Origin: Mesodorylaimus sp. YZB2_4
Taxonomy: Eukaryota; Nematoda; Enoplea; Dorylaimida; Dorylaimidae
Assembly (NCBI GenBank): GCA_030248295.1
Contig: JASANH010000770.1
Coordinates: forward strand, 1,235,080-1,299,079
DNA: 64,000 bases
Direction: 5' to 3'
Below the pieces are notes generated by a model. That model worked only from the letters and a program-made list of their open reading frames with translations. It searched no databases and had not been told where the DNA came from. This document shows, one piece after another, positions 5,147 through 38,462 of the stretch (within the stretch, counting starts at the first letter, position 1; every line of letters starts with the position of its first letter). Both the position numbers and the translations under genes were made by a program.

Positions 5147-7641
5147 ACTGAAATTTCTTCTTATTTTTGAATTTTATCCCTTTCGCCTCCGAAAGAAAAG
5201 ACGAGAATCAAATGGGTCGCACCAAGCAAAGAATATGTACAATGGTTTTCTGCTTAGGTCTTTCGAAGACTCCAACCCCCTCAGCTGGCTCCACTGAATC
5301 TTACCCGTAATTCGTTATCTTCCAGGGCAGCTCGAAGATCTATCTCAGTCAGCTGTAGTTTGACATTTACTATTCTGGGAGGAAGAAAGTGGTTTTGGAA
5401 AAATCAACAACAGCGCAACAATCAGGCGTCACCAGCTGTTTCGTAGATTTCAGCCGATAAGAGGGTCTATCAGCTGATCGACATTGTAATGAGCATCACG
5501 TGACGCCTGCAATAAGGCGAGGTCCTACCAACTAAGTTCCGGAGGTTTAGACTCTAGTGTGTTTGTGTGATTGTGGAATCGGGGAGATGTGGTTGTGGTT
5601 GTGGACATGTGATTGTGGAGGTACGAGAAGTCATATCTACCTACAGTATCTTGAAATTAGGCGTAGGTTTATCTATGCATCCAGGAGAATGCACCAGCGA
5701 CAGTGGCGTTACTCGGAGCAAAATTATTCATCAAATCGACAATTTCAGCAAGAATCATTATGGTATTCTCAAAGAGCGTATTTTCTTCTACAAAAATCGT
5801 TTTTCTTGCAAAACGTTTCTTGGAAATGGGTATTGGAAACATGGCGGGTGTAGTTACTTCAGAGATTTGCGAAGGCTGCACGAAACACACCACACCAAAC
5901 ACACCACTGTGGAAGGGCCACAACCCAAATTTTTCGTGATTTTTCTTTCGTGATAGGGTTCCACTTTTATTTCAATTTGTTCTTCGCGTCTGCACGCCTT
6001 CTTGCAAAGTCAGTATCTCTTTTGCAGAGCAGGGTAAGTTGTGGCAGAGAGTGGTTACTGATAGCATTGCGACCACGAGGCTCCCAGTTCGATGACTCCT
6101 TCATGGCTTGGAATTTTTTGCTTTCGCTTCTCTTCTTTCCACGGGAAAGGAATTTCATTATGAACAAGGTATATGTGGGTGGTCTAAGATTTTGTTGCCC
6201 AGTCATCACTGATAAAGTATCGGCTATGATGAAGGCATAAAACAAGTAACTTTTCTTTATTTTTTAGCCGCGTGTGTGCGCTGTACATATTAAAAAATCA
6301 GTGCATTTGATAAGAAGAATATTTGTTACTGACTATGAAATGGTCAGTAACAAATATTCTTCTTATCGGACTGTACGAGCAATCTCATCTCAGGTACGTG
6401 GATTCACGTTTTGTCGGAGGTTTATTTTTTTCGCAGGCTTGAATGAAAATGTATGGTAGCCGCCGGATTTTCTCAGTCGATCTGTGTTGGGGCATGCGGT
6501 GCTTGCAACAAAATCGAAAAACGGTCATTTAATTTTCCAAAAAAGTCTGTTATGACAGACTCGAAACTTTTAGACCAGCCAATGCACACAATGGATAACC
6601 AGGGCTTCGCACGGCTGGTCTACTAGGCCACACGAGGGAAGGCTCATTGCTCACAGAGTGAAATAACTCGTGCACAGATGCATTCGATGTCAGCATCAAA
6701 GCCACAATGTACTGTACTACTGCTGTTTGGACAGTCTCCCCAAAGGATACCAGTTGTGGTGTTTCAGACGATACGAGTAGCAACCTGAATATGCTAAAGC
6801 TCCAGACTAAGCATCCAGACTTCTAGCCTGCAGCTGCGGGTAAAATGGTATGGCTTATGATTACATACAGTAGATCCCTTAAAATTGTCGAGAGAGACAG
6901 CTCGACAATCTTTCCTTCCCTTCTTCCAGTTTGCTTTGCATGTTCATGTTTTACCATATCAGCAATGGCACGCTTGATGATGGAGGGGACATTTCACAAA
7001 ACGATACTAGCCGCGAGCCGCGCGAGCCAGTAGGAGAGCCCCCAGTTTGAGAGGCGGACTCTCCCAGCCCACAATGAAAACCACGAGCTGGATCTTTACG
7101 TGATCCTCTGCTCGTTGCTCACGACCAGTGCTCGATGCAGGAAAAACTGCTTGAGCACGTTTCCTAATCGACCGTGGCTGCCTTTTGATGTGGCCATGTT
7201 GACCTGCCCTCCTAAGACACGTATTCTACCCCGCTATAAGCTGCAATAGAAAACAAAAGTATGCCCCCCCCCCCATTCAGCTTCATCCTGTATACGTTGG
7301 TATTTTTGCAAGAACCCTTGCTCCTTTTTCATCGTCATCGCCTTCTATTTAATAGAATACAACCAACATCTTATTGCCTCTATTTGTTCGAAATGTAACT
7401 TAAGCTGCCAATATGCATAAAGCACTGCGGCTCACAGCAGAGCTATACAGATTTATATATTCTCCAAGCTTTCAAAAAAGGTCGTCTGTATTTTATTTGA
7501 TCCCATAGCGTAACTTTTACGCCGTGAAACAGCGAGCAGTTATTGCTTTCAACGCAAATCTACGCGCACAAATGATAAGATTTCAATACTTAGCGGGTGC
7601 CAACTCTCAAAGACATGACAAAATCTTTTCACAGATTTTCT
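5147..7641. other. Intergenic with a perfect hairpin and repeat scraps
   Basis: No convincing gene was found. Overlapping frames at 5.56-5.95 kb have no recognisable domain. Features seen are the perfect hairpin at 6309-6367 (listed separately), a fragment of the SINE family 2/LINE 3' tail at about 6937-6962 (CATGTTCATGTTTTACCATATC) and a poly-C run at about 7264. Confidence 0.4.
6309..6367. repeat. Perfect 25-bp hairpin with 9-nt loop
   Basis: GATAAGAAGAATATTTGTTA and the following CTGAC (6309-6333) are followed, after the loop TATGAAATG, by their exact reverse complement (6343-6367). There is no mismatch in 25 pairs. It lies outside any gene. It could be a very young palindromic insertion or a small RNA hairpin. 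Confidence 0.85.
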
Positions 7642-10600
7642 TTATCTTTCATGTCTTCGTTTCGCGATATAGCACGGCAATACCAGTAGTTCGATGATAG
7701 AAAACGCGCCAAAGCCCAGCCACAACCCCACTTGATTGGCCAGTTCAGACATGAAGTCTTCCACCTGCAGAAATATAGTCCAGTTATTTGTACAATGAAC
7801 TAGTTATAGAGCTTACCGATGGAACGAAGCCCTCAGAGTAGAGGACGTATCGCCACTTATGGGCATACACTTCTAGGACACCAACGTCTTGCCTAAAATA
7901 GAGGCTCTTAGCCTGAGCACTGACCACTCCATCCGACAGCAGTTTATTCAGCTGTTGCCCAAAACAAGCTGCTTGGTGGAAAAATGCGCATGCTTACGAG
8001 GACAAATGTGAATTGTTTAGCACTGAATTGCTTGTCGAAAAATAACCCTGAAAGTCATAAATATTTTTGCGTAAGTTGAGTCTTCAAAATATGATCACGT
8101 ACTCCTTTTGAAAATAGCTTCAAGTGGGACTCGACAGTATCGAAAATTCGATTTTGGCACGAGTCCAAGCAATTGCAGTCTGACAATGTTTTCCATTGCA
8201 TCGTCATCAGCTTGTCAATACAGTGTTCTGCAAAGCATATGAAGTTTGTGTAATGGAACGTCGAGTAACTAACAGTTTTCTGTGGTACAGGTCAACAGCG
8301 CCCTGGTTTGTGGTGTTTATCTTTCCAAAAATATGACTACGGTCATGTGAAACAAAGTCATAAGCAGGTCCCGAGTATCTGATGCACAGCACGTTCACGC
8401 ACGCACATTCTCCTAGAGAGCCACTCTAACTTTACTCAAGCCCCCGAATTCGCAAACAGGCATAAAGCTGGGCATGAAAGCGAAATTCAAACATGCTGGT
8501 ATATAAATTCCAGAGAAAATTTTTATATCTTATGATCCTGTTAATCATTTTTTTCTGCTCAGATAAAAGAAAACTTGCTTTGTTTGAATGAGCACAAAGG
8601 CGCGGGAACACTAGCGTTGATATCTTGACTAGGATCGATACACTGGCATTCTCTCAATGCCAGATTTTGAAAGCAGTTTTGCCAACAAGCCTGTAAAGAC
8701 AATGAAATGCAGTACTATCAGCAGTACTCTTGCGGGAGAGATCATGTACATCTGCTGAATACTTTTCGTTTGCGGGTTGACCAATATTCTCGTTTTCGCT
8801 GAAGCAGCCCACAACTTTTTTATATTCTTGCTGCAAAGAGTAAACTTGAAAATCGGCAGGCACTTGTTTCGCAGGGCAGTGCAGTGGTTTCGTCTTGGGC
8901 GGCCCATAAAGTGTGCAGTACACAAAGTATTTCTAGAGCCCCAACATGGCGACCACACGATATGCGTACTCTACTTACATAAGATTGGGCTATCGAAGTG
9001 ACCAGGCCTGGAGATGCAATGCGACCATTGATCGATGGCAATAATGGCAATGCACGATCAGAGATTAAAACCATAACGCCAGCCGACTGGGTGCTAGGAA
9101 CGTAGGTGCTTGTTCGTGTATTGAAGTAAATGCGAAGACCTGAAAACCAAATTTGTCTAAAATTCACGACAAGAAAGCATCATGGAGTTGAGTCGAGAGT
9201 TGTCTGCACGCACCTAATAGGGAAGCAGCGAAGGATTTGGTTACTTTGGCACTGTAAAATTTTGCATACACCCATGTGAATGAATATTCCCAAAACCTCT
9301 GAGGGCCCCAGCAACCTAAAATCCATGGTTTCCCAGTGCCCAGTGCAGTGGGGCGAAAGCACAGGTCGTCTACCTTGAACTGGCCCAGATTTCTCTAGAG
9401 TTTTTTCTTCATTTTCGACGTGATTAAATGAATAACAGTTTCCAATAGAGCTCGAATACCATTTATGCAAGTCTCTGAAACAACATTTTGTAAATGCTAC
9501 AAGGGCTTGAAAGCGATGACAGCCAATCTCGACGTCAATGCGTGTCAAGGCATCTCACACCACACTACATGCACTCACTAACTTCATGCAGTCCTTTGTC
9601 AGAAACGTGCACAATAAAATCAAGTCATGCACATCATCGTAGCCCAAATTCTCTCTCAAGTTTGCTGGCAGATCAGATAGGATATAAGGAATAGCCGCAT
9701 TGATGGCCGCCATTTTCGCGATATCGTCGGACATGGTCTAACACGTAGAAATTACAGAAACTGGCGACAGCTTAGGAGCCGTACAAAAACAAGAAGACTC
9801 TTACATGTAATCCCAGAGCAGTTATCAATTGAGCTTTCGTTTGATTGGAAACTGAAATGTTTTCTGAGTGGATACCAGAAATGGATAGAGTAAGACAAGG
9901 GTAGGGCCCTTACTTATGGCCAGATAGTCGAGAAAATCATAGACAGCCTTTTTCACTGGAGCTTTGTAAATGTTTTGTAGCAATTTTGTTTGTTTTGGGC
10001 TCGCTTCTGTATTCGACGCTAATGTTGGAATAGGTGGTGCCAGACTTTCGATGTGAGAAGGACTGCGGGAAGAGGATAGTGTTTCGGATATCGAAGATAC
10101 GCCTCCGGTGGTTCTGAATGGAGAGTTGGCTGCGGAAAAAGGGCGGCCAGGCGACCATGTAGGGAGGTTAGGATTAGACTTTATGGATGTGTCGATGGAG
10201 GCAAGCAAGGGGTCGGGAAATGTCATTGTCGTGGACGCTGCTTTTGATGTCGGCAGAGCTTGTTGGGATGGGATGGCTATTTCTATGGGCGATGTAGATG
10301 GTATCAGAGGTTTCTTGGTGGTTAAGTGGTATGATGTGGTATGTAACGAGGCGATGGCAGAAGAATGGGAATGGTCTGTTGCAGAAGAAACTAAAGTTAC
10401 TGTGTCGCTGGACGATTCAAAACTGACATATCTAGTTGACATACTTGTAAAACTTGGTTTCGTGGGTCTTTGCTCTATTGCGGCACCCACAGGTGGGGAT
10501 GGGGGTTTGTCTGTAGGAGAAGAGCGGCCAGTTGACCGTGTAGCGAGATTAGGATTAGACTCTGCGGGTTTGGAAGTCAGAGGTGCCATCACTAGGGTGG

Positions 10601-13600
10601 TCGTTAGTAGCGAGGAGCTTTTTGGCGCTATGTTATATGCAGTAACGGTAGAAGCAGATTCTGCTGCTGGGCTACTTGAAATTGTTGACTCTGTAGTAAG
10701 GAGTTTCAACGCATCTGTCTGTGCAGAAACCGTGTTTGGTGAAAATAAAGATGCCGGTGTGGTTGAAGGCATTAATGGCGCTATATCAGATACTACAACA
10801 AAAGCTGTCGAGGTTGCTGGTGATGCGCTTGAAGAAGAAACGTTTCCAATTTGGACTCTCGATGATGATTGTGTCGCAATGATAGTGGTATCTATTCTTG
10901 ATGTGGTTGAAGGTAACAAATACCTTACTGGGGTTGTCGTATCATGTGTTGCAGCAAAGGAAGACAAAGGCGATGTTTGAGAGGAAGGTGAAGCAAGTTG
11001 TGAACTTGATGAAAGCGAGGACCCAGTTGAGGTTGTCGTATTAGACAAAACAAAAGAAGAGCTGCTTGATGTCGACTTTGCCATTGGCGTTGCCTTTGCA
11101 GTTGCAGTTGCAGTCGTATTTTCTGAAGTAGTAGTCCTTGCAGATGGTCCAGCAGAGGAGGATAAGGAGCTCAAGAACGTTTTCACTGGTACAGTCAAGG
11201 GCTGTAAGGAGCTTGTTGATGTTGTCGCAGTTGTAGATATCCTAGTTGATGGCACTGTTGACATAGATGACGTTAGACCTTTTGATGAAGGTGCTATGTC
11301 TGGTGCGGATGGGCTACTGAGCATTGTTACCATTTGTGTGGTTATTGGGTTTGCTGAGGTTGTTTCATTAGGAGCAGCAGTGAAGAAAGATGAGGCGTCT
11401 GGTGAGATAGTTGACTCTGGAATTGAGGAATCTGATGAAATTGGCTTAGCAGTTGTGGTTCTCGATGGGACTGGGTCATCCATATACGTTGCCACACTTA
11501 GTGTGCTCGAAGGTGATGCTGAGGAAGTCATTTGAGGATCAGCGGTGTAAACAGATGAGACTGAATTTATTGATATTCTAGTTGTGCTCACGAGTTTTGA
11601 CATCCTCGCAGGCATGGCTGTAGTTGAACTCAAGAACGTTGTCATCAGTTGCATCAACGGTGAGCGAGCAGGGGCTATAGTACTGCCAGTGGCACTGAAA
11701 TAAGAGGGCTCCGATACGATTGTTGATTGCCCTATTGATGGAGTTTTTAACTGTAATGTCGCTTTTATGGATGAAGACAATATGGCTGATGCAATGCTGG
11801 ATGACCTTGAGTCACCGAACACTCTAGTTGTCGTCTCAGAATGGGAGGAGCTGACTGGGCTTGCCATATTAGTACCAGCGGCGGCGGAAACAGATGAGGC
11901 TGCAGTTGAGCCTGCAGACTGAGGTGTTAAGTCCGCGGTCAGAAATTTTGCCATTGAGGTACTTATAGGGTATGCTATAGATGGGGACTCAGAATTCAGG
12001 GCTGTTGTCAGTTGAAGCGACGAACTCGCTGCTGCCATCTCAGGAATGGTGGTAGAGGCGGATGACGCAGCTGGTAAACTTGTTGACGAGGAAGCTGGTC
12101 TTGTGGTCAGGGGATTTGACGACGGTCTTGATGATAATGATCTCGCTAATGCTACCACTGGTGTAGTTGAAGATATCACTTTAGTATCAGTAAAAACCGA
12201 AGAGGCTGTCATGGAGGGAGTGGATGGAGATGTTGACTCTGCTGTTTTATAGTTCGAAGCAATGGTCTCTACAGATGTGCCAGTGGAGGATAGGAGGCTC
12301 AAGGAGTTAGTGAAAGGTTCAGTCGAGTCACGAAAGGAGTTAGTTGACGCTACAGCTCGAGCAGTGCTGGTAAAAGATGATTCCGTTGCTGTTAAGCTGG
12401 TTAGTGAGCTAGTTGCTTTTGTGGGCTCAACTTCTGACGAAGATGAAATCGCAACCATAGTGGTAGGTGGGGAACTCAAAATTGTCGTCATACTTTCGGT
12501 GAGAGCTTGCGTTACTGGATTAGAAGCAGTTGCATGTATAGATGAGGCTGCTGATGAGCTACTTGATGGGAGATGTGATGTAGGAGTGAAGCGTGTGCCT
12601 GTAGCATTGGCGTAAGACGATGAAGAAGTTAGCGATGCCGTCAATATCAGTGTGGTGGATAATTGTGGGGAGCGTGTTGAAATTTGTGTGCCAGTTGTAG
12701 TGATAGTCGGCATATTAGTTTGGTCCCCTGACTTTGAAGTCGTTGCAGACGTTGACCCAAGAAGTGTAGTAGATGACGACGCAGATGCCATCAAGTTTAG
12801 TGTGGTCACAGGCAGCGAGGACACCGTTGAAATTCCTGCACTGGTCATAGATGAAAAAGAAGATGCAACTTGTATGGAACTAGTTTCTGAAGCTGTTGAC
12901 TCTGTCGTTGGTCTTGATGAAGATAGTACCGTGGGCGTGGTGCTGGATGGAGGCAAAGAGCTTGGCGAGGTTGCCATCGGTGTGGTCAACCTTATATAAG
13001 GCCGTGTTGAGGTCTTTATACTGGAAGGAAAGAAAGGTGGTGCGGATGTTCTTGATGTAGAACTGACGCTCAGGGAACCTGATGACAGCGCCATTGCAGC
13101 TGTGGCAGTGAACGATGATGTAGTCAATAAGGGAGGCATAGTCGTCCCTGAAGACAGAAAAAATGTCGCCACAGACGTGGTTTTCTCAGTGAGTGTAGAT
13201 GGCGTTGAACTTCCTGTCCAGCTTGTGGTTGGTGCGCCCATTGGCACGGAGTTCAAAGTCGACGCTGTCAAAGTTGCCGATGAAGGTAATAAAGAAAACT
13301 GTGTCGACAGCAACGTGGTTGAGGGAATAAAGAATGTTGAAGCTGTAAGATTAGTGGTTGCGAAAGATTCGGGTGTTACTGACGTCGTTGGTGCAGCTGT
13401 GGTCTTGGATTTCAAGGAGGACATCATCGCAGACTTTGCATCAAATGAGGATAACAAAGTTGATAGTGCCAGCTCCTGTGTAGTAGAAAATGTTAAAAGG
13501 CCTGATGAGGTTGCCAAATTAGCAGTGGTGGGAGAACTAGGTGTGGGTGCTGTTGATGTAGTTGTTGTAAGACCCGCAGTCGTGGTCATAGGTTCCAGTA

Positions 13601-16600
13601 AGGTCTTCCTAGTGGAGGAGGGCAGCGAAGTCACCGCTGTCGTCGTCAGTGCAGAAGGTAATGGTGGGGACCCTGTTGATGTGGCTAGATTAGGGATACT
13701 GGCAGAATCAGATAAAGCTGTTGATGTCAGCGATCCCAAACTTGCTGTTGTGCTCTTTGTTTTTGGTGTAGTCCTCATGGTAGAGGAGGATAATGCCAGC
13801 TTCTGTGTAGTAAAGGGTGAACGGAAGCCTGTTGAGTTTACCGAATTAGCTGTAGTGGGATAAGTAGCTGAGGCTGCTGTTGATATAACTGATGCAAAGA
13901 TCGTGGGTTTCAGTGAGGTCTTCTTAGTTGAGGAGGGGAACGAAGTTATTGCTGTCATCGTCAGTGCAGTAGATAATGGTAGGAAACCTGTTAAGGTCGC
14001 TAGATTAGTGACCAGGGTAGCATCAGTTGAAGGTGCTGTTGACGTGGGTAATGCAAAACTCGCTGTTGTGGTTTTGGATTTCAGTGAGGTATTTGTGGTG
14101 GAAGAGAGCAAAGAAGTTAACAATGTCTGCTCCAGTGAGCTAAAGAATAGCGGGGACCCTGTTGAGGCTGCTGGATTAGTAACAGTGACAGAATCGGATG
14201 AAAGTGCTGTTGATGTGTGGGATGCAAAACTTGCTGTTGTGGTTTTTGGTTTTGATGTAGTTCTCATGGTGGATGATGATACCAGCTTCTGTATGGTAGA
14301 GATTGGTGGGGAGCCTGCTGAGGTTGCCAGGGTAGTAGCTTCCTTTGTCCTCAAGTGTGCTGGTGTTGAGGCCGCTGTCGACGTTGTCGAAACTGTAGCA
14401 CTAGATGAAGATGCCAGTGTGGTTGACCTCAGCCAAGAACTAGTGGAGGTAGCTAAATTCGTAGTGGGGATAAAAAGAGTTGAAGCTGATCTTGATAGAG
14501 TTGACGCAGATGTTGAAAAGGACGTTGTGGTCGTGGGCGAAAATGGCGTTGTCACAACTGCGGTTGTGGGTGTGGGTGAAGAAGTAGACATCGCTACTCT
14601 TGTCGTTGTCGACGGCACTGAGGAGGTGGTTGAGGTTGCTCTCGTTGTACTAGTTGTGCTAGTTGTGGCTGTAGATAATGTCGTTGTTGATGAAGTTGTT
14701 GTTGTTGTCGTAGCTCCTACAGTAGAAGAGCGTCTTTTGAATCTTTTGTCTCTTGCACATTTCACGATTAGGCTTACCCGGAATCGGTGCTTGACACACT
14801 ATGGTTAGTGGATACTTTGACGCGTCGCAAACATAGCCATATAAATTATCATATGTAGTTTTAGACGTCGAAAGCTTGCGATTGACCAAAGCGACACATT
14901 TGGCCGTAGATGGACTCGGGTTGTCATAATTGAAAGGCATGTAGACCCCAGCCACAGTGGCATTCGTGTCAAATCTAATCAAGGGAATGGTATAGCTAAC
15001 AAATTTCATACCCACCACAACATAGTACAGTGAAACATTGGCGTTCATATTCCTAGGGAAAAGACTCTTAGATCATCAACTTGTATGCGCATATTTTGGT
15101 GTCATACTTGACCCATGCTTTGAACGCCGAATAGTCATTATTTGAACTAGATACGTCGTCGAAAACTGGCAAACTACTTCCTGTGATTGAACATGTCTGG
15201 GCGACATTTTCGAATGTATCGGTCACAGTGGCAGGATATTGGTAATAACAGAAGTTACCAGCTTGAGTCCATCCCGACTGCTGACACCCTACAACGCACA
15301 CCGGTAGACTTGAATGTTAGGGGCATAAAATAGCTACCAGTACTGAATGGTATTCAGACCTGATTGTCGCTTTTGTCTGTGATGTTCATGAGAATCATCA
15401 GTTTTGATGATAGTGGGCGAATCAGCGTTGCTCTTTCCAAAGTCTGCCCTCCATAATGCGGTATTGACTTGTAAGTAAGGGGGCAACTTGATGTCATTGC
15501 CATGTTGATTAGGATCAGTCTTTGTTGTGTTTTTGTGCTGATGACCTACAGCTGAGAGCGTTGCCGTTTGTGGTTCGGCCCCTGATGCTGTGGAATCAAT
15601 TGACTTCGTTGCACTGGCAATCAATTGGGTGTGCTTCATTGCAGCAATTTTGCGAGAAAGATTTGATGGACCCGCTATTGCTGCAACATCTTGTGGAAGT
15701 CTATGCCGTGTCTGTGCCTGGGTGACACTCATACTGGGTCTTGTTAGAGCCCGAAGGTCAGAAGAGGCGATGCTTGGATGGCTGGAAGCACTAGTGTCCT
15801 CAAAATCCAGACTTTGGGTTGGAGTAGGTGAGTGATTGCTGATTGTCTGTTTCTGCCCAATGATGTTTGCGGGTTCAGATTTTCGACTGGCTTGGCTTCG
15901 AATAACCTCTGGTTGATCGAGTGGACTACTGTATCTAGGAGTAGGGTAAAGGCCAGCTTGACTGGTCGAATATTCGTCACTGCGAATGGGTGGGTCAACT
16001 GAACCACCCGCTGGGCTTCTTCCAATATCGACACTGCCAGAATTTAATGTTGAAGGCCAAAAGGCGGTAAGTGGAGGTGCATTGACCACATGGACCTGAC
16101 TTTGGCGAAACGAGATGCCTGGAATTTGTGCAGCATCAAAAATATTTTTATCCACAGATGCTGTATCATCAACATTGATTGAAATTTGCTTGCCAGCTGT
16201 AGCTTGAATTGACTTGAATTGAAGATGTTCTACGGTTTGACTATGAACAATATCTGCCGGCTGGTGGGCCAGTGTCGAGCGGGGAGGCCCAGGTTGAATA
16301 GTCGTTTCCATGTTTAGAGAAGGTGGTTCCTCTGCGTTTGCTGAATTCCCTGGCATCGCGTTCCCATTGTTGGAATCTGCTAAAGTTACAGCTTTTAAAC
16401 TTGGCAGACAAACTGAACCTGGCGGGTTTTTCTCACTGTTAGTTACATTCGTCGGTGCTGGAGTCGGTGCACCTGGAATATCCCTCGGAAGATGATGCAA
16501 CTGTTCATCCGCTGCGCTTCTGTTTTCAGTGTCATGTGGCTTGACATTCGCTGTCGCCTTTGTCTCATTCTGCAAGAATTTTTGTGTACCTCTATGTCAC

Positions 16601-17058
16601 ACCAACCTAATTCGATTACCTCAGCAAGCATTCCCATTGCCAGTTCTTGCAATGCCTTCAACTTGTAGGGATTTATATTGCACACAGTCACAGTAGGGAA
16701 CGTAGTAGCTGGCTCCTGCATCTGAAATAGTAACACAGGCATTTTCTTAAAATAACCTATGACCTAAAAGCAGCGTTATATGTACTTGTGTGCTAACAAA
16801 CGTATCAGGGCTCAAGAATGCAATAACTGCAACGGCCACGTAAAAAGCGCAAGCAGTGAACACTGCAACATCTGTCAGCAGCCACGATGCCTTCCAAATC
16901 TTGCTGCTCCGATGAACGCAATTGAGTAGTATATCCAATGTCCATCCCTCTCCATCTCCAATCCCATATGAAGCAAGGGGTGGGTCCTTATTTTCTTCGT
17001 CATTTTCAATCTCTTCTTCGAACTCATCTGGAATCACTATGCAGCTTCCCAATGCCAT
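7642..17058 (-). CDS. DEG/ENaC channel with a C-type lectin and mucin domain inserted in its extracellular region
   Basis: This is a multi-exon gene of about 2,650 residues. Exons read with GT-AG borders and matching phases are 17058-16786, 16721-16620, 16569-15360, 15288-15108, 15052-14778, 14716-9876, 9737-9583, 9474-9374, 9139-8979 and 8830-8750. Then come 8690 onward, a short piece around 8380-8340, about 8227-8099, about 8046-7997, 7951-7817 and 7764-7642. Borders between 8690 and 7951, and the donor at 9876, are uncertain. Exon 1 gives an acidic cytoplasmic N terminus and TM1 (residues about 58-82). Exon 2 carries the family motif FPTVTVCNINPYK. After the inserted domains come CTF...DC...GNCYSFN, GLRIYFN...AGVMVLI, YSADACWQNC...RECQC, HCIDKL...CNCLDSC and TM2 (GLWLGFGAFSIIE), ending with IAKRRHER. 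The cytoplasmic HG gating motif reads HR and the GxS filter reads GFG. DEG/ENaC subunits are usually 500-900 residues. The family is certain; the exact C-terminal exon set is not. Confidence 0.85.
9876..14716 (-). other. Mucin-like Ser/Thr-rich segment of the DEG/ENaC gene (exon 6)
   Basis: One exon of about 4.84 kb encodes some 1,614 residues almost wholly made of Ser, Thr, Ala, Pro and small hydrophobics, without cysteine in most of its length. This is the composition of a heavily O-glycosylated mucin. Near its N-terminal side a unit of about 55 residues recurs at least five times in degenerate form (cores TTTASFASHTSTAL, TTTASFALPTSTAP, STTASLGSLTSTAL, TTTAGLTTTTSTAP; about 14270-13440). 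The last 60 residues change character (LLQNIYKAPVKKAVYDFLDY), as if returning to the channel fold. The donor used at its end is uncertain: GTATCC after 9876 keeps the frame with the next exon, while a better-looking GTAAGG about 35 nt upstream does not. Confidence 0.8.
14778..15288 (-). other. C-type-lectin-like domain of the DEG/ENaC gene (exons 4-5)
   Basis: Two exons joined across a 55-nt intron encode about 150 residues with the layout of a C-type lectin-like domain. The opening is C-x4-GW-x4-NFCYY, then TFENVAQTC...GSSLPVF, and further on AKCVALVNRK, YGYVCDAS and IVCQ. Six cysteines fall where the long-form CTLD has its three disulphides. The usual calcium and sugar-binding triplets (EPN/QPD and WND) are not visible, so sugar binding is doubtful. 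The domain lies between a furin-like site and the mucin segment, in the same open frame as both. Confidence 0.7.
15360..16569 (-). other. Hydrophilic linker of the DEG/ENaC gene ending in a furin-like site
   Basis: Exon 3 encodes 403 residues that are polar, rich in Ser, Thr, Pro, Gln and His, and free of cysteine after the first few dozen residues. It starts about 20 residues after the FPTVTVCNINPYK motif, so it should lie outside the cell. Its last residues are HHRQKRQS, a basic cluster matching a furin-type R-x-K-R site, and the lectin-like domain follows at once. The 50-nt intron before it and the 71-nt intron after it both keep the frame. No domain was recognised inside the linker. Confidence 0.7.
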
Positions 17059-18064: not shown

Positions 18065-18750
18065 TCTCACCCAACGGCGCTTCTTGACCGGCGACATATT
18101 GCTCAATCGAAGCTTAGTTCTTGCTTTGCTCGAGCTTCAAAGCTTTGCTGAATTTCCAGATCGTAGGGTGGGATGCGCCAACAATTTCCTCAAACGCATT
18201 ATGCAAGCCTTCGACTGAATTGTTCGTTTTTGTAAGACCATCGACAACGGCGTGATAACAATTCCAAAGCGAGACAGAAAATCGTGGTGGACGTCGACGA
18301 TTGCCGAGTCGGACGGCCTATCCAAGTATCTTCAAAATAATCGATCACTGGCTGAGCCTCGGCCGGAAAAGCAACTTGATCCAACAAATCGTTAAAGGAT
18401 TCGACTACATTTTCAGGAGGCACGTAAGCCAACGATGACAGCATTTTCATTTGTAATGCAAAATCATCGTCGTTTTCGAATCGTTATTGCAGAATAGCGG
18501 CTTGAATATGGCGATAAATGCATTGATTAAAATGATAAAAGCAACCACGTTGAGCTGTGTTAGGAAACACATTGCCAATTGCATTGCTCGATGCGGTTTC
18601 GAAATCGGTTAGGATGGACCGAGGGGCGGTGGCTGGTGCAAGGGTACGAAGTTGATCGAAGAGGCGAGTTTCGGTTGTTGTCTCGAAGAATTCTTCGCCA
18701 GTTTCGGTTGCTGTTAACTCAATAGGGATTTCCAACATATATTCTGGCAT
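18065..18750 (-). pseudogene. MULE transposase remnant
   Basis: Three minus frames in a row match the middle of a Mutator-like (MULE) transposase. The first (18750-18484) includes SILTDFETASSNAIGNVFP and GCFYHFNQCIYRHIQ, which holds the catalytic-region Asp of the DDE fold and the following conserved C-H pair. The next (about 18450-18300) reads LAYVPPENVVESF ... YFEDTWIGRP. After a one-base shift it continues with WNCYHAVVDGLTKTNNSVEG and ends near 18110. The N-terminal FLYWCH or zinc-finger part and part of the catalytic core are missing. With a frameshift and a stop at 18485, it cannot be active. Confidence 0.75.
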
Positions 18751-18790
18751 CGCCGATGGGACGCACTTCTGACGGGTGACCTACTGACTG

Positions 18791-36486: not shown

Positions 36487-37351
36487 CTAAGGATTGTCAG
36501 TCTGACCATCTTTCGGACCAGGTAACTTTAAATAACAATAACACTGTACCAATACATAGAGAACAAAAATCTGAATTACTGTCAATGCCAGGCAAGCGCA
36601 ACCATATTCAATAGCCAATAGCTTGGTAATATTCATTCCGAATGCTGTGACCGTCTCTTGATCTTTTGTTATTACGGCGCCAGCAATGAGAAGCTGAATT
36701 CCAATTATACCAGCCAGGACTGTTAAAGCCTGAAACGCAAACTAAGCCCCTTTCTGACAGTTCTAAACTTGGTTGTAGCGAGAAAAGTTGACTTCAGTGC
36801 GAACTATCAGATTATGCCATGTTATACGTACATTGCCATAAGGTCTAAAAACAGAAACTTTGCATATTGTCCGCAGTTCCCCAGATGGTAGTGCAGCAGT
36901 TTGTGTAAGTGGTTACATACTGTACTTGTGGAGTCATATCACATTGTGGCATTCTGAGAATTGTGTCAGTTCCAATAAAAATACTGTAGCAAAACGTTGC
37001 ATAAAATATTCTTACCGAAAGCATTATGTGCGGAATAAGTAACCATTTATTCCGAGTTTTCGCCCCATGCATCATAACTAATATGACCATGAGCCAACTC
37101 ATGCAAATAACAAGAACAGTCACAAAAATGTTTAGAAATTTTTCGGCCACAAGCGGTTTGTTTTCTTCGATCCACGAAACAAAAAATAACAAGAAAACTG
37201 CCCAGCTAATTGTCAAAATGCCCAATTCAATAAGACCGATAAGAAAGACAAGAGTGCGGATTTGGCAGCAGCAAAGAAATGAGAATGGTGTTGGATCATC
37301 TTCTATTTTAGGGCTGATATCCAAGTCCTGATTACTGGTAATGATAGCCAT
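36487..37351 (-). CDS. Four-helix LAPTM/DUF7027-like membrane protein, copy T2
   Basis: Exons 37351-37016 and 36729-36487 join in phase 0 to 192 residues. I took the ATG at 37351 (MAIITSNQD), because the frame upstream of it looks like leader sequence; an earlier start at 37462 is possible. FLCCCQIR precedes helix 1, HGAKTRNKWLLIPHIMLS precedes the intron, and the second exon opens ALTVLAGIIG. The C terminus reads VQCYCYLKLPGP, keeping a YxxL signal. The second exon has no ATG of its own and is easy to miss. Helix 2 and the loop before it are longer than in the other copies. Confidence 0.8.
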
Positions 37352-37462
37352 GACGAGCCCGCTAACGCTAATGGTTACTAAACTGCTGGACGTTCCCAGC
37401 AGAGTCTGTGAAAGAGTGAGTATTTCTGGTGTCATATTCAGCGCTTCTTGCTCGAGCAACAC

Positions 37463-38462
37463 CTGACACCAAAATGTTGGTTTTCATTCGTTTCAGTTGG
37501 CAGGGAAAGTTTTTAACATCTAGTATCATGTTCGGCTCAACACAACCTGGCACGCATCCTCTTGTTGTGCAGCAGTTTGCGTTGTTCTGCCAAAATGTTG
37601 GAAATAGGCTAATTTATAAAATTTTGATTAATGTACCCAACTTTTCATCAACTTCCTCAAAATACTGTGACTGTTGCTTATACTTACCCGCCTACCAGTA
37701 AAAATTTATAGCGTTTTAACAATTTACGAGCCTCATTTTGGATTTTCACTTTAGTTCTTGCTCTCATTTTGCTTGGTGTGCTACGAATAAATAATCCAAA
37801 ATAATGCCAACTGCTGATATATTGTACAGCCTAGAATTAAAAAAAGAATCGTGGATGAAAATGCCCGCAACAAACTTACATCGCCTCCATCTTGTTTTCG
37901 TTCAAAAAATTAAAGAATTTCTCCAGCTAATTCTAAATAAGCATTATTTCGGCAAATCCGACTGCCTGCAGTGGCTTGTCTTGTATATGCTAGAAGGGTT
38001 ACAGTATAACGAATGAGAGGGCTCCCAGAAGTGACAGAAGGGCTCTACTGGATCTGGGGGCTCCCCATGCTTCCCTTCGTCCAGAATTCTAAATAGGGTC
38101 CATGAGTCGGCTGACGATGCAACAGGCCAGCTAACTACATGCGTGTTCTCGTATGGAGGATTCACATATGGTGTCTCCATCAGGGCCAATAAAATTCGAG
38201 CGTTCTCATGCTTCTAATAAAATATCTAATGGGCGAGATGTTTTCGTGATGATCCCTCGAGCACCCCACTTGGATCGAGGCATTACATTTAATTTAAAGG
38301 ACAATAGCGACGGGTGGCAGTAATGGCATTAAGCGGGCTAAGAGAGGAAATTTCTAATTTTGTTACGTTGCCCGTGCATCTTTCAGGATCCTTGACATTT
38401 TTCTGCCTATCCCGGACCCTTCTATAAATTCATGTAGTTTCGTCGAGAACGGTCAGAACGAA
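37463..38462. other. Intergenic between T2 and receptor G1
   Basis: T2 and G1 are divergently transcribed, so this 1-kb stretch should hold both promoters. The 45 bp before the G1 ATG resemble those before the G2 ATG (GTAGTTTCGTCGAGAACGGT against GTATTTCGTCGCTGACAGT). No other feature was recognised. Confidence 0.4.

Follow-up and report, generated by a model that had tools for sequence, protein, structure and literature searches.

The channel gene and its ectodomain insert

A window of 64,000 nucleotides from the nematode Mesodorylaimus sp. YZB2_4 (contig JASANH010000770.1; the window is the whole of this stretch) carries on its minus strand a gene of the DEG/ENaC channel family, the ectodomain of which is interrupted by a very large insert with a diverged C-type-lectin-like domain (CTLD) and a mucin. 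The gene runs from an ATG at 17058 to a stop ending at 7642, and its 16 exons, modelled from genomic sequence and joined across GT-AG introns, give a single frame of 2,672 residues (Table 1). The original prediction, made from the DNA letters, had proposed the same span and strand, and its further claims on exon layout were recovered: the first transmembrane segment (TM1) and FPTVTVCNINPYK lie at one end of the gene (exons 1-2), GNCYSFN (exon 9) and the second transmembrane segment (TM2, exon 16) at the other, the linker has 403 residues (126-528), and exons 1-10 join in frame with GT-AG borders across introns of 50-71 nt around the insert (introns 1-7 measure 64, 50, 71, 55, 61, 62 and 67 nt). 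Paralogue searches took in the whole genome of 145 Mb, and the relatives are named by contig (C51, C612, C537p, C537m and C15). The borders of exons 11-14 were picked by eye and frame, and C51 points to another start for exon 11.

Membership of the DEG/ENaC family is evident from matches to both halves of the Pfam ASC domain, from two transmembrane segments around one large ectodomain and from alignment to ENaC and ASIC proteins. Positions 15-87 of the ASC profile (PF00858) matched residues 50-119 (E 2.2e-8, 34.0 bits) and positions 134-454 matched residues 2317-2660 (E 1.3e-33, 117.1 bits), both above the gathering cut-off of 23.6 bits; between them the domain is interrupted by residues 126-2262, and the Pfam search gave no ASC match in the linker, CTLD or mucin frame. 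Among PDB sequences the TM1 half aligned to residues 62-114 of gamma-ENaC (E 0.0015) and the channel half to beta-ENaC from residue 239 (E 1.8e-8, the best match) and to gamma-ENaC from residue 237 (E 6.4e-8). ENaC, ASIC or FaNaC made up 25 of the 28 PDB sequences listed for the channel half, the other three being phosphatases at E 0.05-0.06. The two highest hydrophobic peaks are at residues 64 (2.58) and 2648 (1.93), with a maximum of 1.44 within the insert; since these peaks correspond to TM1 and TM2, the insert would by topology be extracellular.

The insert consists, in order, of the linker, a proprotein-convertase-like site, the diverged CTLD and the mucin, and at ~2,137 residues it is close to the ~2,150 first proposed. 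The mucin, for which 1,614 residues had been claimed, is present with 1,579 (682-2260); it is 53% Ser+Thr+Pro, has no Cys, is encoded by a single 4.8-kb exon and continues directly into KAPVKKAVYDFLDYLAI and then the finger. It was recognised as a long Ser/Thr/Pro-rich, Cys-poor tract, and so were its counterparts in relatives (37-64% Ser+Thr+Pro, no Cys in three of four, two Cys in C537p). The insert comes after YKLKALQELAMGMLAE, assigned to finger helix 1, and ahead of a stretch in exon 8 assigned to helix 2; on these assignments its position would be that of the GRIP domain of ENaC. The CTLD-mucin cassette of exons 4-6 has phase 1 on both sides, at the end of exon 3 and at the start of exon 7, which makes it symmetric; such a cassette could have been exon-shuffled into the gene and could be skipped in frame, switching the arm off. 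Short Pro/Gly/Ser/Thr-rich stretches were seen near the same finger site in three other DEG/ENaC genes (C30, C14 and C117, that of C30 with R-P-R-R-S), because of which the site looks insertion-tolerant.

Identification of the CTLD, a domain of ~150 residues across two exons, depended on comparison among the family copies. The Pfam check proposed with the original prediction held for ASC and failed for Lectin_C, the gathering score of which was not reached by any of the five family copies; one of them matches at E 0.015. The best Pfam match of the window CTLD was CBM49 (E 0.0037), which was rejected as the identity of the domain as it is below the cut-off and confined to one of the five members. 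A PDB search with the window CTLD alone gave no matches. With a profile of the five copies 21 PDB sequences were matched up to E 5, all 21 of C-type-lectin fold as judged by name; the top match (E 3e-6) sums repeated domains of one receptor, the best single domain of which has E 0.66, and the next is a single-domain chain at E 0.00095 (domain E 0.0013, the best single domain among the alignments shown). When aligned by hhalign with Lectin_C domains of the same genome, the profile scored a probability of 86% and E 5e-6 over 71 columns. Six Cys in the long-form pattern align in all five copies, C537p having two extra, and the WIGL position reads VPLGL or VVVGM. We read the domain as a diverged CTLD on this six-Cys pattern and the profile similarity. 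Calcium-dependent sugar-binding C-type lectins carry EPN or QPN and WND at the calcium site. None of these motifs was found at that site in any of the five copies; a QPN at residue 35 of the C537m domain and an EPS at residue 19 of that of C537p fall away from it. Sugar binding by the CTLD is thus not supported and, because the motifs are missing in five copies, a protein or other surface ligand seems as likely as a glycan.

Table 1. Features of the channel gene, in window positions
Feature	Position	Strand	Basis
Whole channel gene, 16 exons, 2,672-residue protein	7642..17058	-	Exon chain in frame with GT-AG; Pfam ASC matches
Exon 1: cytosolic N terminus and TM1, residues 1-91	16786..17058	-	Hydrophobic peak 2.58 at residue 64
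Exon 2: FPTVTVCNINPYK and probable finger helix 1; phase 0 at both ends	16620..16721	-	Gene model, Pfam ASC, gamma-ENaC alignment
Exon 3: 403-residue linker; phase 0 in, phase 1 out	15360..16569	-	Gene model; 27% identity with C51 linker
R-Q-K-R, proprotein-convertase-like site, residues 523-526	15367..15378	-	Sole R-x-[KR]-R in protein; same place in relatives
Exon 4: CTLD, first half; phase 1 in, phase 2 out	15108..15288	-	Gene model, paralogue comparison, profile search
Exon 5: CTLD, second half; phase 2 in, phase 1 out	14778..15052	-	Gene model, paralogue comparison, profile search
Exon 6: mucin; phase 1 in and out; final residues KAPVKKAVYDFLDYLAI run into finger	9914..14716	-	53% Ser+Thr+Pro, no Cys; relatives
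Exon 7: small finger exon (ISNQTKAQLITALGLH); phase 1 in	9805..9851	-	Matching exon in C612, C537p, C51
Exon 8: finger, probable helix 2	9583..9737	-	Gene model, genome search
Exon 9: GNCYSFN	9374..9474	-	Gene model, PDB alignment
Exon 10: palm strands	8979..9139	-	Gene model, PDB alignment
Exons 11-15 (8932-8816, 8690-8575, 8268-8099, 8047-7998, 7951-7817): Cys-rich thumb/palm; 11-14 provisional	7817..8932	-	
Exon 16: TM2 and stop	7642..7764	-	Gene model
G-F-G, selectivity-filter position, residues 2649-2651	7708..7716	-	Aligned to G-G-S of beta-ENaC
AATAAA ~145 nt past stop, candidate poly(A) signal	7492..7497	-	Motif scan

Paralogues and the single-gene model

Queries with the TM1 half, the CTLD and the channel half matched C51 and the two C537 genes in the same order, and C612 likewise has the same order of parts. 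The C537 CTLDs were matched at E 0.004 and 0.02 with the window query and down to 8.6e-28 with that of C612. Six genes fell on one side of a branch (support 97/96) that separated them from four other DEG/ENaC genes of the genome, and five of these six (the window gene, C51, C612 and C537 twice) have both CTLD and mucin. In the sixth, C15, the TM1 and channel parts are separated by mucin sequence in two Ser/Thr-rich open frames (55% and 41% Ser+Thr+Pro), and the tree placed the gene nowhere definite relative to the CTLD members. Judged from these comparisons, this is a real multi-member variant of the DEG/ENaC family, with a lectin-mucin arm at the GRIP site in at least five genes.

The gene structures agree as well as the order of parts. 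C51 was modelled through exon 10 and all nine of its introns share the phases of those of the window gene, eight being GT-AG and one GC-AG; the window peptide guided the choice of borders and this agreement is therefore not fully independent, although frames and splice signals were still needed. The GC-AG intron of C51 lies between linker and CTLD, where the window gene has GT-AG in the same phase. A phase 1 intron before the CTLD and a phase 2 intron within it were found in all five CTLD members (the acceptors before the domain in C612, C537m and C537p were read by eye), and a phase 1 intron after it in all four that were modelled there (the window gene, C51, C612 and C537m).

Conservation differs from one part of the protein to another. 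Between the window gene and C51 the ratio of nonsynonymous to synonymous substitution rates (dN/dS) was 0.12 for the TM1 part, 0.06 for the CTLD, 0.05 for the finger and 0.04 for the palm, ratios that are rough because synonymous sites are near saturation (dS 1.28-2.82 in these four segments); no ratio was computable for the linker, which is 27% identical between the two. As its ratio is close to those of finger and palm, the CTLD is conserved about as strictly as the channel core, and TM1 part, CTLD, finger and palm are all under purifying selection. Identity to the window CTLD is 27% in C612, 25% in C537m and 27% in C537p. Mucin length varies widely, from 670 residues in C51, against about 1,580 in the window gene, to up to about 1,250-1,640 in C612, C537m and C537p, where lengths were read to the stop of the open frame. 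The mucin of C537m contains 14 near-identical 16-residue repeats, SSGPP[ST]SASSILTSTT (exact count), followed by non-repeated mucin.

The selectivity filter varies within the clade. Na+-selective ENaC and ASIC channels have G/S-x-S as their filter motif. In the alignment this position reads G-G-S in beta-ENaC, G-F-S in C612 and C537m, and G-F-G in C51 and the window gene, where the motif of a Na+-selective pore is accordingly absent. This mismatch touches selectivity and leaves homology intact. It was also observed that natural filter variants occur inside one small clade, G-F-G in two paralogues and G-F-S in two.

It might be supposed that separate channel-fragment and lectin-mucin genes splice together in frame on paper by chance, as the gene model was built from genomic sequence. 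The original prediction would have been overturned by transcripts ending between its parts, and this scenario gained no support. Four AATAAA motifs lie on the coding strand between 7000 and 17400, one 145 nt past the stop, two within coding exons and one upstream of the start, and none was found on that strand in the interval from linker to lectin or in that from mucin to GNCYSFN. The insert has no strongly hydrophobic stretch to compare with TM1, CTLD and channel core are conserved together, and the same order of parts recurs at five loci with shared phases at the CTLD borders. On this order and these phases two separate genes were rejected, a chance join being very improbable, and the claim that a single channel gene encodes an ectodomain containing linker, furin-like site, CTLD and mucin is very strongly supported.

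Proposed cleavage and gating, and rival readings

R-Q-K-R is the only R-x-[KR]-R found by motif scan in the whole window protein. In all six clade members an R-x-K-R lies 1-5 codons upstream of a phase-1 donor, the sites reading RQKR-QS in the window gene, RPKR-QSG in C51, RNKR-QAAIG in C612, RKKR-QVETG in C537p, REKR-QAPT in C537m and RVKR-S in C15; for the last four the assignment rests on frame, place and phase. A survey of the five other linker regions in all three frames gave 20 R-x-[KR]-R rows (23 with overlaps), only four of which have a GT[A/G] phase-1 donor no more than seven codons on. These four are the C612, C537p, C537m and C15 sites, each with GTAAG[C/T]. The C51 site has a GC donor two codons downstream, and four further R-x-[KR]-R stretches (two in C612, two in C537p) show nothing more than a chance GC match. 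Of 20,000 shuffled versions of the linker, 34 had such a motif among their last 12 residues, a figure that was the same for the window gene and for C51. Because the site recurs within an otherwise fast-changing linker, selection for cleavage is suggested, and a convertase probably does cut at the predicted R-Q-K-R site.

Cleavage of this kind would give the channel an unusual form. A furin-type convertase would cut R-Q-K-R in the secretory pathway, leaving one chain of TM1 and linker and another of CTLD, mucin, finger, palm and TM2, which the fold of the ectodomain and disulfides would presumably keep joined. The CTLD would then be the free tip of a long mucin arm, predicted to be O-glycosylated, with its root next to finger helix 2; from its residue count such an arm may be up to hundreds of nanometres long. 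We put at about even the chances that the protein is such a two-chain channel, with the CTLD tipping a free mucin arm rooted in the finger and acting as an extracellular tether or sensor. If the tip bound matrix, cuticle, mucus or another cell, or if the arm were pulled, the effect could be passed to the finger and change channel opening, making a tether-gated or contact-gated channel from one gene. This is taken as the likeliest role, as tip and root are conserved and the spacer between them varies freely in both length and sequence, and it is put forward tentatively, at rather less than even chances. Somewhat more doubtful is the full picture of a self-tethered channel, in which one gene would supply the pore, the gating spring and the matrix- or contact-binding tip, each subunit having its own convertase-freed lectin-tipped arm, rooted in the finger at the site of proteolytic gating in ENaC.

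The same arrangement could be read as a proteolytic gate like that of ENaC, in which the huge insert would block finger and thumb as an inhibitory plug until cleavage, first at R-x-K-R and then by other proteases acting in linker or mucin, relieves the inhibition; the channel would sense proteases or mucinases, not force. Insert and convertase-like site do occupy the GRIP position, between finger helices 1 and 2, with R-x-K-R in six of six members, and linker and mucin are poorly conserved in sequence, as disposable tracts would be. However, a scan limited to R-x-[KR]-R saw one such motif where GRIP-type release of a tract takes two cuts, so that a furin-type convertase alone would excise nothing, and the constraint on the CTLD, about that on the channel core, is needless for a plug; a plug is accordingly considered unlikely, if the strongest of the alternatives. 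Less probable again is an arm that serves purely as an anchor in mucus, glycocalyx or cuticle, or as a shield for the channel, and leaves gating unaffected. The differing lengths of the mucin suit a spacer of this sort, but the attachment is internal: the arm springs from the finger between helices 1 and 2, a region with a bearing on ENaC gating, instead of from a terminus. A little less probable still is a former channel whose pore is dead and which is retained as an adhesion protein, displaying lectin and mucin at the surface. The window gene and C51 read G-F-G instead of G-x-S, and many other DEG/ENaC genes in the genome could supply a pore, yet C612 and C537m have G-F-S and the TM1 part, finger and palm are under strong purifying selection.

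Several points count against the tethered, two-chain channel itself. The CTLD lies under the Lectin_C cut-off, its per-domain PDB scores are weak, it lacks the calcium-site motifs, and no CTLD was found in C15 by the five-copy profile. Exons 11-14 are provisional, and the linker exons of C612, C537p, C537m and C15 have no modelled start. That the organism's own convertases cut R-Q-K-R is a prediction and, because the filter reads G-F-G, conduction and Na+ selectivity are unproven. The role first suggested, a channel tethered to or sensing a glycan or mucus layer, stands in part: a lectin-mucin arm is present in the channel, and glycan or mucus sensing is unproven.

ENaC is among the closest known systems. 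Its GRIP domain lies between finger helices 1 and 2, holds furin sites and controls gating, and includes an inhibitory tract and a second cut site (PMC6197857). The window protein shares with alpha- and gamma-ENaC the ASC family, the insertion between these helices and a furin-type site inside it (PMC6197857). With gamma-ENaC it has the motif FPxVTxCNINPYK in common, but the stretch there is on the order of a hundred residues long (the alignment breaks off at 114 and picks up again at 237), whereas here it is ~2,137 with CTLD and mucin. Known EGF-bearing DEG/ENaC proteins likewise have an extra adhesion-type domain, EGF there as against CTLD and mucin here on a comparison of domain content. 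Polycystin-1 has a CTLD. It and LOV-1 resemble the window protein as channel-complex proteins with a large ectodomain and two chains after cutting, and differ in belonging to an unrelated family, in GPS autoproteolysis and in having the ectodomain N-terminal rather than between TM1 and TM2 (PMC9829181).

Tethering has been proposed for other members of the family. A review covers ENaC with N-glycan tethers to matrix and the tether model for MEC-4 and MEC-10 (PMC9108448). These touch channels are likewise DEG/ENaC proteins with proposed gating via extracellular tethers, but MEC-1, MEC-5 and MEC-9 are separate proteins, whereas here the candidate tether is inside the subunit (PMC9108448). DEG/ENaC-matrix coupling and the evolution of finger-domain proteolysis are open questions on which the family bears. 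The proposed tether partners of MEC-4 and MEC-10 are separate and difficult to reconstitute; a fused candidate tether with an in-frame cassette and arms of 670 to about 1,600 residues would make force-from-tether and GRIP-type gating testable in one polypeptide. The gene also suggests that exon shuffling put a giant adhesion module inside a channel ectodomain, not at its end. No channel-lectin-mucin fusion was found in the open-licence literature, subscription journals and InterPro/UniProt architectures being outside the scope, and absence of this design from print is a weak claim.

Genome context and neighbouring features

The genome has at least 114 places matched by DEG/ENaC (93 of 1,086 candidates scored) and at least 90 CTLD places, so that the parts for a fusion were at hand. 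Some of the DEG/ENaC members cover most of the ASC profile in one stop-free frame, without introns. The idea that the genome is rich in DEG/ENaC genes with large single-frame inserts was dropped after the split cases C215, C14, C30, C117 and C12 were read. In C215 the two ASC parts lie in open frames ~1.4 kb apart, and an intron is a simpler reading than an insert; C14, C30 and C117 have only their short stretches at the site, and in C12 no insert was definable. A dense cluster of C-type-lectin domains was seen on contig C21 at about 899-952 kb.

Within the window a MULE transposase fragment lies upstream of the channel gene (18487-18780, minus strand, Pfam MULE E 9e-10), and two 25-nt arms (6309-6333 and 6343-6367) form a perfect inverted repeat around a 9-nt loop, possibly a small mobile element. 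Exons of an SLC12-type cation-chloride cotransporter occupy 22.6-25.5 kb of the plus strand (AA_permease E 3e-22, SLC12 E 2e-30). Three Srsx/rhodopsin-type receptor genes with long single open frames are found at 38.3-39.6, 44.9-46.1 and 55.2-56.3 kb on the plus strand, interspersed with minus-strand multi-transmembrane proteins such as that at 36848-37483 (DUF7027 below cut-off).

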